NCBI RefSeq assembly: GCF_008728835.1
Contig: NZ_CP042582.1
Location: 1,612,001-1,676,000 of the forward strand
From: Hypericibacter adhaerens
GTDB lineage: Bacteria > Pseudomonadota > Alphaproteobacteria > Dongiales > Dongiaceae
Direction: 5' to 3'
Length of the DNA stretch: 64,000 bases
Part shown: positions 51,947-64,000 of the stretch, in pieces
Layout of the letters: each line of letters opens with the position of its first letter
Numbering within the stretch: the first letter of the stretch is position 1
The notes under the pieces: generated by a model
What the model saw: the letters and a program-made list of their open reading frames with translations, nothing else
The model's database searches: none
Told to the model about the DNA's origin: nothing
Position numbers and translations under genes: made by a program

Positions 51947-52022
51947 GGCGGCGTAGCTCAGTCGGTAGAGCAGGGGAATCATAATCCCTGTGTCGGGGGT
52001 TCGAATCCCTCCGCCGCCACCA
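51947..52022 (+). tRNA. tRNA-Met (CAT), elongator type
   Basis: A 76-nt cloverleaf. Acceptor stem GGCGGCG (51947-51953) with CGCCGCC (52012-52018), discriminator A and an encoded CCA (52020-52022). D arm GCTC/GAGC, anticodon stem GGGGA/TCCCT with loop ATCATAA (anticodon CAT at 51980-51982), T arm with TTCGAAT. The perfect first acceptor pair and overall similarity to E. coli elongator tRNA-Met argue against the initiator. A tRNA-Ile2 with a lysidine-modified CAT is less likely. Confidence 0.93.
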
Positions 52023-57169: not shown

Positions 57170-58231
57170 TCAGCCCCGCACCTCGACGACCGGTGCGCCG
57201 GTCTGCGCGTGGCCGACGATGCGCGTGCGCGGGTAGCCCGCGGCGGCGATGCGGTCCGCGATGGCCTGGGCCCGATCGGCGGCGCAAGCCACGAGCAATC
57301 CGCCGGAGGTTTGCGGGTCGGCCAGCAGGTGGCGACGCCATTCGGGGAAACCGGCCGGCAGCGTGACGCCGTCGCTGTAGCTGGCCCAGTTCCGCAGCGA
57401 CGCACCCGTGACGAAGCCGCGCCGGGCGAGGCTTTCGGCCTCGGACAGCAGCGGCAGGTCGGGCGCGTTGACGACAAGGGTGAGCTTCGAGCCGCGCGCC
57501 ATCTCGAGCGCATGGCCGAGCAGGCCGAAACCGGTCACGTCCGTGATCGCATGGACGGCCGCGTCCTTGGCCAGATCCGTGCCGATGCGATTGAGGAGCG
57601 TCGTCGAGGCGATCATTTCCGCATAAGCCGGCGGCGAGAGCTCCCCTTTCTTGAAGGCCGCCGAATAGATGCCGACGCCGAGCGCCTTGGTCAGGATCAG
57701 CGCGTCACCGGGCCTGGCGGTCGAGTTGCGGCGGATATCCTGCGGGCGGCCAATGCCGATCACGGCCAATCCATAGATCGGCTCGGGCGCGTCGATCGAG
57801 TGCCCGCCCGCGACGGGGATTCCGGCCGAAGCGCAGGCCTCCGCGCCGCCCTTGAGAATTTCTCGTACCATCTCGGTCGTGATCTTGCCGACCGGCATGC
57901 CCAGGATGGCCAGCGCCATGATCGGCCGACCGCCCATCGCGTAGATGTCGGAGATGGCGTTGGTCGCGGCGATCCGGCCGAAATCGCGCGGATCGTCGAC
58001 CACCGGCATGAAGAAGTCCGTGGTCGCGATCACGCAGGTGTCGCTGTCGATCTGCCACACGGCGGCATCGTCGCCGGTCTCGGTCCCGACCAGCAGCTCC
58101 CGATAAGGCTGGGCGGCGGGCAGCTCGGCCAGGAGCTGCTGCAGCACGGAGGGCGCCAGCTTGCAGCCGCACCCGCCGCCATGGGCGAGGCTGGTCAAGC
58201 GAAGCTGAGGATCGATCATCGGGACATTCAT
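57170..58231 (-). CDS. selD: Selenide, water dikinase
   Basis: 353 residues. The N-terminal '[12 protein letters not shown]' carries the catalytic Cys21 and Lys24 (the Cys form; some SelD have Sec here). '[12 protein letters not shown]', '[32 protein letters not shown]' and '[10 protein letters not shown]' are the ATP and metal sites. It makes selenophosphate from selenide and ATP for selenocysteine tRNA and 2-selenouridine. The neighbouring formate dehydrogenase uses selenocysteine, giving a direct need for this enzyme. selA, selB and selC are not in the window. Confidence 0.96.
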
Positions 58232-58259: not shown

Positions 58260-59363
58260 TCAAGCTGTCAGCTCCGACGCGGTAATGCTGTATTTGAAAT
58301 TGTCCGCGTCGAGGCAATCGAGGCGGGCGGCGGCGGTCTCGGCCTGGGGGTACATCAGGAAGCCCAACCTCGGTCCCCGGGCGCCCGGCAGCGCGACGTC
58401 ATGGGCCATGTTGTAGGCCAGCCAATTGCCCTCCCAGGCGCCGAACAGGGTCGCATGCGCGGCGACCACCTTGGCATCGTCCATGGCGAGGTTCCCGGGC
58501 GGTTCCTCCAGAACGACCTTGCGGACGTCGGCCGGATCGACCGCGACCCAGCCATAATCCGTGAGATAGACCTCCGCCCGGCAATGCTGCGCCTTGGTCA
58601 CGGTCTCGGATTTGGCGCCGAGGCTCTGGTAGCCGAACCGGGAGCGCGCGACGCGGATGCCGTAGATGTCGCGCGCCGGCAGGCCCGAGGCGCGGGCCAG
58701 GCCGACGAACAAGGCGTTGAGGTCGGCACATTTGCCGCCGAGATTACCGGTCTGGAGCATCGAGGCGATGTCGCCGATGCCGCAGCCGCGGACCTTGGGA
58801 TCGCGGAAGGTATTCGCCACGATCCATTCATAGATCGCGCGCGCCTTCTCGACCTCGCTGCCGGCGCCGGCCGTGATCTTGTCGGCCGTTTCCTTCACGA
58901 TGCCGTCGGTCGGGATGAGTGCGGTGGACGAGAGATAGAGCGTGCGCTCGGCGTCGGCAAGCGGCGGGACGCCGCCCGGTTGTGCGAAATCGACCGCGCG
59001 GTCGCGGGTCGTGACCCGGCTCGTGACCTCGACCATCGGCGCCGGTTCGCCCTCCGCCCATTCGAGATGCAGCATCTGCGCGCCATATTTCGGATCGTGC
59101 TCAATCCTGGCCGAGGCCGCATTCGTCTGCCATGCGCTGCTGTCCGACCGGAACCAGCCGGCTTCGTTGACGGACGGCAACGGCACCCAGGCTTGCGTCT
59201 TGCCGGCCGTGCCCGCGATCTCCAGCCGGGTGACGATCTGGAACTTGCGCCAGGCTCCCGGCATCGGCGCGAAGAGGCTTTCGGCGAAGGCGAGCCGGGG
59301 CAGGGCGGCGACAGCCGGCAGCACGGCGCCGAGCTTCAGAAATTCACGCCGATCGAGCGACAT
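58260..59363 (-). CDS. Tat-exported transglutaminase-like protein
   Basis: 367 residues. A Tat-type signal ('[13 protein letters not shown]', residues 2-14) precedes a domain with the transglutaminase/cysteine-protease triad: Cys212 in '[11 protein letters not shown]', His260 in '[14 protein letters not shown]' and Asp about 275 in 'AVDPADV'. Such bacterial proteins are usually proteases or peptide-modifying enzymes rather than true transglutaminases. GAGGAGA lies 5 nt upstream of the ATG at 59363. It is 28 bp upstream of selD on the same strand, so the two may be co-transcribed. Confidence 0.88.
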
Positions 59364-59733: not shown

Positions 59734-59763
59734 AGCAACCTGCCGGATTCGCGGGCTTTATGC

Positions 59764-59791
59764 TTGACATGGCGCGGCCCTGGCCTACGCT
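59764..59791 (+). promoter_or_regulatory. Candidate promoter of the formate dehydrogenase operon
   Basis: TTGACA (59764-59769, exact -35) and TACGCT (59786-59791, weak -10) with 16-bp spacing, about 90 bp before the fdnG ATG. Confidence 0.4.
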
Positions 59792-59882
59792 TTTTGCGAG
59801 ACGAAATCCCGCCGATCGGGTGGTCGCGATCGCGGAGGGAGTCGAGAGAGGCGTCATGGGTGGGCAACGGGAGGTTGTAACC

Positions 59883-62800
59883 ATGAATGAAATGTCCCTC
59901 AACGGAGAGCTGTCGAGACGCCAGTTCATCAAGCGCACTGGCGCGGGCATCGCGGGAACGACGCTGGGCGCGCTGGGATTCGGCGGCGTGGAGGCCGCCT
60001 ACGCGGCGGCGATCCGGGAGTTCAAGCTCGCGAACACGACGGAGACGCGCAACACCTGTCCCTACTGCTCGGTGGCCTGCGGCGTCATCATGTATTCGAA
60101 GGGCGATCTGAAGAAAGGCGAGACCGCCGAGATCGTCCATATCGAAGGCGACCCGGACCATCCGACCAATCGCGGGACGCTGTGCCCGAAGGGTGCGGCC
60201 CTGCTCGACTTCGTCCATGCCGAGACGCGGCTGAAATATCCGATGGTTCGCAAGCCGGGTTCGGACAAGTTCGAGCGCATCGCCTGGGACGACGCCTTCG
60301 ATCGAATAGCCCGGTTGATGAAGGACGATCGGGACAAGAACTTCATCGCCAGGAACAATGACGGGGTCATCGTCAACCGGTGGCTCACCACCGGGTTCCT
60401 GGCGGCGTCGGCGACCACCAACGAAACGGCGTTCCACACCTACAAGGTGGTGCGAAGCGCCGGGATGCTGGCGTTCGACAACCAGGCGAGGGTTTGACAC
60501 GGCCCCACGGTGTCCAGTTTGGGCCCGACATTTGGCCGTGGTGCGATGACCAACGCATGGACCGACATCAAGAACACCGATCTCGTCGTGATCATGGGCG
60601 GCAACGCCGCCGAGGCCCACCCTTGCGGGTTCAAATGGGTCGTTGAGGCGAAGGCCAACCGCGGCGCCAAGCTGATCGTCGTCGATCCGCGCTTCACGCG
60701 TTCGGCCTCGGTTGCCGATTTCTATGCGCCGATCCGGCAGGGAAGCGACATCGCGTTCCTGCTGGGCGTCATCAACTACTGCATCCAGAACGACAAGGTG
60801 CAGTGGGACTATGTCAAGGCCTTCACCAACGCGACCTATGTGGTGAGGGACGGCTTCGCCTATCAGGACGGCCTGTTCTCGGGCTATGACGAGGCCAAGC
60901 GCTCTTACGACAAATCCACCTGGGAGTACGAGTTCGACGCCGACGGCTTCGCCGTCGTCGACGACACCCTCCAGAACCCGCGCTGCGTCTGGAACCTGCT
61001 GAAAAGCCACGCCGCGGTCTATACGCCCGAGATGGTGGAACGCATCTGCGGTACGCCGAAGGAGAAGTTCCTGAAGGTGGCCGAGATGGTGGCCGAGACC
61101 TCGGCCACCAACAAGACCATGACCTCGATGTATGCGCTCGGCTGGACCCAGCATTCCAAGGGCTCCCAGAACATCCGCGCCATGGCCATGCTCCAGCTCA
61201 TCCTCGGCAATATCGGCGTGCGCGGCGGCGGGATGAATGCCCTGCGCGGTCACTCCAACATCCAGGGGCTGACCGATGTCGGGCTGATGTCGAACCTGAT
61301 CCCGGGCTACCTCACCTTGCCGACCGACAAGGAAGTCGATTTCACCACCTACATGTCGACGCGCGGCTTCAAGCCGTTGCGGCCGAACCAGACCAGCTAC
61401 TGGCAGAACTACAAGAAGTTCTTCGTCAGCTTCCTGAAATCCATGTGGGGGGATGCCGCCACCGCCGAGAACGATTTCGCCTACGACTATCTGCCCAAGA
61501 TGGACGTGCCCAGCTACGACGTGCTGCGCGCCTTCGAGCTGATGAACCAGGGCAAGATGAACGGCTATTTCTGCCAGGGCTTCAATCCGCTGCTGGCCTT
61601 CCCGAACCGACAGAAGGTGACGGAAGCGCTGTCCAAGCTGAAGTTCCTGGTCACCATGGACCCGCTCGAGACCGAGACCTCGCGGTTCTGGGAAAACCAC
61701 GGCGAGCATAACGATGTCGATACCGCTTCGATCCAGACCGAGGTCTTCCAGCTGCCTTCGACCTGCTTTGCCGAGGACGAGGGCTCGCTGACGAACTCGG
61801 GCCGCTGGCTGCAATGGCATTGGCCGGGCGGCACGCCGCCGGGCGAGGCCAGGACCGATGTCTGGATCATGACGCAGATCTATCTGCGCCTGAAGGATCT
61901 CTATGCCAAGGAAGGCGGCGCCTTCCCGGATCCGATCCTCAATCTGCAATGGCCCTACAAGAATCCGGAAGACCCGGCCTCCGAGGAGATCGCGCGGGAG
62001 ATCAACGGCTCCGCCCTGGCGGACGTGCCCGACCCGAACGACCCGACCAAGCTCCTGCTCGAGAAGGGCAAGCAGGTCGTGAGCTTCGCCGCGCTGCGCG
62101 ACGACGGCACCACGGCCTGCGGCTGCTGGATCTATTCCGGCTGCTTCAACGAGGCGGGCAACAACATGGCGCGCCGGGACAATACCGATCCCGACGACAC
62201 CGGCCTGTTCCCGAAATGGACGTTCTCCTGGCCGGTCAATCGCCGCATCCTCTACAACCGGGCCTCCGCCGATCTCAACGGCAAGGCCTGGGATCCGAGC
62301 CGCAAGATCATCGAGTGGAATGGCGAGAAATGGTCGGGCTATGACGTGCCCGACATCGCGCCCACGGCGAAGCCCGATGTGGTCGGTCCCTTCATCATGA
62401 ACCAGGAGGGCATCGCCCGGCTGTTCGTGCGGGGCACCATGGTCGACGGTCCCTTCCCGGCCCATTACGAGCCGTTCGAATCGCCGATCGAGAATCCGGT
62501 GGCGCCGAAGATTCGCGGCAATCCGGCGGCCCGCGTGTTCAAGGACGACATGGAGCAGTTCGGCGACGCGAAGAAGTTCCCCTATGCGGCGACTTCCTAC
62601 CGCCTCACCGAGCATTTCCACTATTGGACCAAGCACAACCGCGTCAACGCGATGCTGCAGCCGGAGTTCTTCGTCGAGATCTCCGAGCAGCTCGCGCAGG
62701 AGAAGGGCATCCAGCCCGGCGGATGGGTCCGTGTCTGGTCGAACCGGGGCTCGGTGAAGGCCAAGGCGGTCGTCACCAAGCGCATCCGCACGCTGATCTG

Positions 62801-62978
62801 CGACGGCAAGCCCGTGCATGTCATCGGCATCCCGCTCCATTGGGGCTTCACGGGTGTGGCGAGAAAGGGCTTCGGGCCGAATTCGCTGTCGCCGTTCGTG
62901 GGCGATGCCAACATCCAGACGCCGGAATACAAGGCGTTCCTGGTCGATATCGAGCCCATTGCCGGGCCGGTGGCATAG
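59883..62978 (+). CDS. fdnG: Formate dehydrogenase-N alpha subunit, selenoprotein
   Basis: 1031 residues when the TGA at 60495-60497 is read as selenocysteine 205. A Tat signal ('LSRRQFIKRTGAG') exports the folded enzyme. C59, C62, C66 and C101 bind a [4Fe-4S] cluster. The segment 'NQARV-Sec-HGPTVSS' then 'FGRGAMTNAW' is the active-site signature of Fdn/Fdo, where Sec ligates molybdenum. The molybdopterin domains and a C-terminal dinucleotide-binding domain continue uninterrupted after the TGA. It oxidises formate to CO2 in the periplasm. A SECIS-like hairpin follows the TGA at once. GGGAGG precedes the ATG. It is neither two genes nor a pseudogene. Confidence 0.95.
60495..60540 (+). promoter_or_regulatory. 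fdnG: Selenocysteine UGA codon with bacterial SECIS hairpin
   Basis: Directly after TGA (60495-60497), CACGGCC (60498-60504) pairs with GGCCGTG (60534-60540). An apical stem GTCC/GGGC (60512-60515 with 60521-60524) closes an AGTTT loop. Position and two-tier shape match SelB-binding SECIS elements of E. coli fdhF and fdnG. Confidence 0.88.
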
Positions 62979-62987
62979 GAGGGAGCG

Positions 62988-63935
62988 ATGGCGTTCGAAT
63001 ACGAGCTACCGCCGCCGCCGACCCACGACATCCATTCGGACCTGGGCGAGGGCGACTGGATCCGGCGGTCGGCCTCCAGCGTACCGGCGCCGGCGCGCCA
63101 GCTGACGCCGGTGGCGAAGCTGATCGACGTCTCCAAATGCATCGGCTGCAAGGCCTGCCAGGCGGCCTGCGTGGAGTGGAACGATCTGCATCAGGAGGTC
63201 GGCTACAACGAGGGCGTCTACGACAATCCGTCGGATCTGACGCCGGACATGTTCACCCTGATGCGGTTCACCGAATGGGAGAACCCGGAGACCCAGAACC
63301 TGGAATGGCTGATCCGCAAGGACGGCTGCATGCATTGCGCCGACCCAGGCTGCCTCAAGGCCTGTCCGGCGCCCGGTGCCATCGTCCAGTATTCCAACGG
63401 CATCGTCGACTTCGTCCACGAGAACTGCATCGGCTGCGGCTACTGCGTGAAGGGTTGCCCCTTCAACATCCCGCGCATCTCCAAGGTCACCAACAAGGCC
63501 TATAAATGCACGCTCTGTTCCGACCGCGTCGCGGTCGGGCAGGGGCCGGCCTGCGCCAAGGCCTGTCCGACCCATGCCATCGTCTTCGGCACCAAGGAGG
63601 AGATGACGAAGCATGCGGAAGGCCGCATCGAGGACCTGAAGTCGCGCGGCTACGCCAATGCCGGCCTCTATGATCCGCCCGGCGTCGGCGGCACGCATGT
63701 CATGTATGTGCTGCATCACGCCGACCGGCCCGAGATCTATGCCGGGCTGCCGAAGGATCCGCATATCAGCGTGCTGGTCGAGCTGTGGAAGGGGGCGAGC
63801 AAATATGCCGGCCTCGCGGTCATCGGCGGCATGGCGCTGTTCGGGCTGGTTCATCACCTGGTGACGGGTGCCAACAAGGTCACGCCCGAGGACGAGCGGG
63901 ATGCCGAGCGGCTGGCCGGGAGCGCCGAGCCATGA
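62988..63935 (+). CDS. fdxH: Formate dehydrogenase beta (iron-sulfur) subunit
   Basis: 315 residues with four [4Fe-4S] ferredoxin-type motifs: '[15 protein letters not shown]' (C51 onward), '[14 protein letters not shown]', '[14 protein letters not shown]' and 'CTLCSDR..CAKACP'. A C-terminal transmembrane helix follows ('[20 protein letters not shown]'), as in FdnH/FdoH. It carries electrons from the alpha subunit to the membrane cytochrome b subunit. It starts 9 bp after fdnG and overlaps the gamma-subunit gene by 4 bp (ATGA). Confidence 0.95.
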
Positions 63936-64000
63936 CGAAAGCGGAAAGAGCGACCGGAACCGAGCCGGGCGACGATGTCCATCCGGGTTCTCCGGTGACG
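63932..64000 (+). CDS. Start of the next gene, probably formate dehydrogenase gamma (cytochrome b556) subunit; partial
   Basis: Only 23 codons are inside the window, encoding a hydrophilic start ('[15 protein letters not shown]'). The assignment rests on the 4-bp overlap with the beta-subunit stop and the fixed alpha-beta-gamma order of formate dehydrogenase-N operons; the sequence itself is too short to identify. Confidence 0.55.

Follow-up and report, generated by a model that had tools for sequence, protein, structure and literature searches.

A formate dehydrogenase gene of Hypericibacter adhaerens with a predicted selenocysteine codon and its adjoining selenium genes

Results and Discussion

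A formate dehydrogenase frame interrupted by a single TGA

The stretch of DNA analyzed here (the window) comprises 64,000 nucleotides, positions 1612001-1676000 of the single-contig genome of Hypericibacter adhaerens. Close to its end a long reading frame for the alpha subunit of a formate dehydrogenase contains an in-frame TGA, which raises the question whether this codon breaks the gene or is read as selenocysteine (Sec), as an earlier note on this DNA had claimed. The frame and the genes following it are listed below; L009 denotes genome positions 1669001-1689000.

59883-62978, plus strand: fdnG/fdoG, predicted Sec-containing alpha subunit of a membrane-bound periplasmic formate dehydrogenase (TIGR01553; phmmer match to 1KQF)
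60495-60497, plus strand: predicted UGA selenocysteine codon, residue 205, corresponding to Sec196 of E. coli FDH-N (alignment to 1KQF; codon conservation)
62988-63935, plus strand: fdnH, iron-sulphur beta subunit (TIGR01582, 482.8 bits, cut-off 334.7)
63932-64000, plus strand: first part of fdnI (gamma subunit, a cytochrome b), which continues beyond the window and in full occupies L009:6932-7645 (PF01292, 94.3 bits)

Reading of the frame confirmed that the TGA is its sole interruption and is the codon of residue 205. The read-through product has 1031 residues, with a Tat-type signal (RRQFIK) and a CxxCxxxC iron-sulphur motif. It matches the model for the alpha subunit of formate dehydrogenase-N (TIGR01553) with 1431.6 bits over residues 10-1024, the cut-off being 814.2 bits, and phmmer aligns it end to end with the E. 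coli FDH-N of 1KQF (E=0). In this alignment residue 205 falls exactly on position 196 of 1KQF (X, that is Sec196) within the identical stretch ARV-U-HGPTV, which bears out the claim that the TGA occupies the molybdenum-ligating position. The genes for the beta and the cytochrome b subunit are likewise present in the operon. As to the name FdnG, an alpha subunit of the FDH-N type is supported by TIGR01553, but FdnG and the paralogous FdoG of FDH-O both come under this model and are not separable by it; for the alphaproteobacterial genes the name fdoGHI has been used (Mukai 2021, PMC8124441).

Under the standard code fdnG yields two open reading frames, 59760-60497 and 60510-62978, and it is plausible that annotation pipelines split the gene accordingly. 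Correct annotation matters here, as two broken halves would be replaced by one gene for a predicted intact selenoenzyme.

The SECIS element downstream of the TGA

A SECIS hairpin is found at the TGA:

60492-60550, plus strand: bacterial SECIS element (Rfam RF01989, SECIS_3), lower stem 60498-60504/60534-60540, apical stem 60509-60516/60520-60526

The search with a SECIS model that the earlier note had proposed gave 80.5 bits over all 59 positions of the SECIS_3 covariance model (E 1.9e-17 for the window), above the curated gathering cut-off of 63 bits. Both stems that had been described before, 60498-60504/60534-60540 and 60512-60515/60521-60524, are pairs of this model. In the whole 5.87-Mb genome SECIS_3 matches at this site alone, in a search that selenoproteins with other SECIS types would escape.

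Folding of the single sequence was tried as proof of the element and dropped, the folding energy of the hairpin being unremarkable against shuffled sequences (z -0.74). We compared the element in 65 distinct relatives with TGA. In the apical helix 99.6% of the cells are paired across the 65 sequences, and double-sided changes occur at the apical pairs 21/33, 22/32 and 24/30 in 8, 26 and 19 sequences, respectively. For the whole structure we counted 56 double-change cells, where shuffling gave 20.2 and sliding of the partners no more than 20; the covariation score is 0.175 and does not exceed 0.065 for slid structures. The lower stem is invariant in part, but pair 8/48 is disrupted in 28 of the 65 relatives and pair 15/42 in 38, and the covariation therefore supports chiefly the apical stem. 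The support for the SECIS element thus consists of covariance model and covariation and not of thermodynamics.

The genes for selenocysteine insertion

The components required for decoding UGA as Sec lie on both sides of fdnG:

57170-58231, minus strand: selD, selenophosphate synthase, cysteine form and not itself a selenoprotein (NF002098, 487.8 bits, and TIGR00476, 422.9 bits, both above cut-off)
outside the window, plus strand, in this order after fdnI: fdhE, selA, selB with nested selC, ORF2 (Pfam matches for FdhE, SelA and SelB)
genome 1681046-1681137 (Rfam) or 1681046-1681141 (ARAGORN): selC, tRNA-Sec (79.7 bits, cut-off 47)

The earlier note had placed selD about 1.6 kb away on the other strand, and indeed it is found 1.65 kb from the start of fdnG on the minus strand; it is the single SelD match over the cut-off in the genome. 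That note had also made its reading depend on selA, selB and a tRNA-Sec occurring in the genome, and all three are present just beyond the window. The tRNA-Sec carries the anticodon TCA (UCA) and an 8-bp acceptor stem when folded. The Sec-decoding set selA, selB, selC and selD is therefore complete, with selA, selB and selC in one gene cluster and all genes for Sec insertion within about 13 kb. In this region selD and a transglutaminase-like gene are on the minus strand and fdnGHI-fdhE-selA-selB/selC-ORF2 on the plus strand; FdhD is present elsewhere in the genome.

The other common user of selenophosphate is MnmH. It was not found in the genome by a search which did detect the E. coli control, and this leaves Sec as the sole known purpose of SelD in this genome. 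Among the 80 named relatives, fdnG is in most cases co-located with sel genes. The gap between selA and selB measures 30 bp in the genome studied here and about 800 bp in many relatives, where there is room for an extra gene.

Conservation of the codon and alternative readings

Only this one stop interrupts the frame, which is what one would also see if the base had been wrongly sequenced or if the gene were dying after a nonsense mutation. However, in a codon comparison of 80 named loci from the genome collection together with loci from class- and order-wide searches, TGA is present at the position of residue 205 in 98 of the 99 relatives, a total that counts the window, although protein identity ranges from 38 to 83%. 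Error or decay would also hardly have struck the catalytic position, left a SECIS element behind it and the remaining frame intact. Among the 81 closest relatives, variation at the third position is seen in 274 of the 280 neighbouring codons outside the SECIS, and therefore the TGA has been kept by selection and not by shared recent ancestry. As judged from these sequences, chance is excluded as the source of the TGA, and codon conservation refutes an error or a dying gene, to which we assign a practically negligible probability. The one deviating relative (L112, 53% identity) has TGC and demonstrates that Cys at this position exists in nature, and Mukai (2021, PMC8124441) cites UGA-to-Cys recoding in other bacteria. 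One could hence suppose that an unusual tRNA or a changed code makes UGA stand for Cys or Trp and not for Sec. Yet a canonical tRNA-Sec with UCA anticodon is present together with SelA, SelB and SelD, and fdnG is the only gene of the region with a read-through UGA, so that we consider such a reading very improbable. Almost certainly, then, fdnG is a selenoprotein gene whose UGA 205 is decoded as Sec via SelB and the SECIS element, giving a quinone-linked formate dehydrogenase.

Codon, SECIS element, genes, conservation and covariation are established at the sequence level, and from them we infer transcription of fdnG as well as Sec insertion, metal binding, export and activity of its product. 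SelA would make Sec on Ser-tRNA(Sec) with selenophosphate from SelD. On the fdnG mRNA the hairpin directly following UGA codon 205 would serve as docking site for SelB-GTP with Sec-tRNA(Sec), and the delivery of Sec would compete with release factor 2 at the UGA. In the mature alpha subunit Sec205 is predicted to ligate the molybdenum or tungsten cofactor; the Tat pathway would export this subunit together with FdnH, and FdnG/FdnH with the FdnI cytochrome would form the quinone-linked enzyme. The organism can thus probably use formate and probably needs selenium for that.

The predicted enzyme resembles the E. coli FDH-N alpha subunit FdnG (1KQF) in its full-length homology, the aligned Sec, the SECIS directly downstream and the accompanying FdnH and FdnI subunits; unlike in E. 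coli, the fdn genes run straight on into fdhE and selA-selB-selC, and selD lies opposite. In Alphaproteobacteria that decode Sec, a selA-selB-selC operon has been described as adjoining fdhA, the single selenoprotein of these bacteria (Zhang et al. 2006, PMC1794560). From this fdhA-selABC cluster there is no basic difference. A Sec-containing formate dehydrogenase with adjoining sel genes is thus the expected, already known alphaproteobacterial arrangement, as in many related soil bacteria.

A tRNA-Sec gene in frame within selB

The tRNA-Sec gene does not follow selB but is part of it:

L009:10081-12162, plus strand: selB, 693 aa (Pfam match)
L009:12046-12141, plus strand: tRNA-Sec, in frame within selB from codon 656
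L009:12046-12162 (genome 1681046-1681162, outside the window): end region of selB with the tRNA-Sec and the start of ORF2

With its 96 nt from GGA to CCA the tRNA-Sec lies wholly in the selB frame, and the selB stop codon TGA overlaps the ATG of ORF2 in an ATGA at L009:12159-12162. SelB would consequently end in translated tRNA sequence, the predicted C-terminal tail reading GREASPVGRPDFKSGWGREPALGGFDSHSLPP... A tRNA-Sec inside selB with the selB stop overlapping the start of a downstream ORF1/ORF2 has been predicted before, along with a proposed model in which tRNA processing lowers the expression of SelB and ORF2 (Mukai 2021, PMC8124441). The locus shares this architecture, both in the 96-nt tRNA kept in frame from GGA to CCA and in the stop codon within the ATGA overlap. 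Beyond that work, we counted frame preservation over many loci and determined the co-occurrence of ORF2 with the Sec-containing dehydrogenase.

In 68 loci having both selB and selC the tRNA is nested in 55; the selB stop precedes the tRNA in 11 and lies inside it in 2. Such nesting could have come about passively when selB lost its stop codon, translation of the tRNA sequence then being under no selection. That 13 of the 68 loci lost or lack nesting, with about 6 changes of state on a SelB tree, tells us that it is not essential, and the spacer sequence is poorly conserved; both agree with an accident. The length of the spacer that separates the tRNA from the SelB core does not. Every one of the 55 nested loci has a spacer divisible by three (18 to 111 nt, 48 nt in the genome studied here), whereas the remainders 0, 1 and 2 occur in 3, 3 and 7 of the 13 non-nested loci. 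Multiples of three are not forced by stop codons, since 51 of 67 tRNAs contain no stop codon in any of the three frames. The tree, a quick tree on which changes were counted as a parsimony minimum, requires at least 24 changes of spacer length among nested loci. If the 6 state changes are taken as frame-breaking, the frame was kept in 24 of 30 changes, where a simple null expects one third (P = 2e-7). Because all 55 spacers remained multiples of three despite this many length changes, selection appears to maintain the reading frame across the tRNA, and a merely passive origin is in our view unlikely.

The spacer comparison therefore suggests that translation through the tRNA-Sec is under selection; the protein tail, the coupling to ORF2 or the balance between SelB and tRNA may be its target. 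We tentatively put forward, as a reading with somewhat less than even chances, that ribosome passage through the tRNA-Sec would be a selected regulatory device by which a transcript yields either tRNA-Sec or full-length SelB with coupled ORF2, thereby setting the ratio of SelB to tRNA-Sec, and that ORF2 would be an unrecognised dedicated partner of the Sec-containing dehydrogenase. The frame-preservation count puts the proposal of Mukai (2021, PMC8124441) on a quantitative footing and opens it to testing.

ORF2 and the transglutaminase-like gene

Two neighbouring genes that have received little study recur at these loci:

L009:12159-12626, plus strand: ORF2, 155 aa, predicted helical protein
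58260-59363, minus strand: transglutaminase-like protein with Tat-type signal (PF01841, 80.2 bits), 28 bp upstream of selD

For ORF2, Pfam yielded nothing and NCBIfam nothing over the cut-off. It follows selB/selC in 36 of 81 loci and occurs in 8 of 385 sampled genomes of the class, all 8 being among the 16 genomes with FdnG (P about 1e-12 by a statistic that ignores relatedness). Its AlphaFold2 model is a confident all-helical bundle (mean pLDDT 90) for which the comparison with solved structures returned no significant match. The residues R50, W84, F127, E128, F139, L142, F143, T150 and D154 are invariant. In 31 of the 70 loci that have selD, the transglutaminase-like gene is its immediate neighbour, with strand and gene order retained, and FdnG is present in 8 of the 12 class genomes possessing it. 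A full-text literature search for transglutaminase-like proteins combined with selD returned an incidental mention only, with no role in selenium or formate metabolism described. We regard ORF2 and the transglutaminase-like gene as candidate accessory genes of the Sec-containing formate dehydrogenase system.

Distribution in the Dongiaceae

The genome adds a further member, from the Dongiaceae, to the known alphaproteobacterial clusters. Within this family the dehydrogenase is found in 3 of 17 genomes, and SelD exceeds the cut-off in 4 of 17, those 3 included. A genome of the same genus (G014) yielded neither an FdnG match nor a SelD over the cut-off; homologues of two flanking genes were searched for there and neither was found, so no empty site can be read in it.

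In three genomes of the family, G010, G009 and G012, SelD is part of open frames of about 765 aa (L117, L118 and L119), which suggests a fusion; SelD of the window is a stand-alone protein of 353 aa. Besides the genes described above, both ARAGORN and Rfam find a tRNA-Met gene (CAT) in the window at 51947-52022 on the plus strand.
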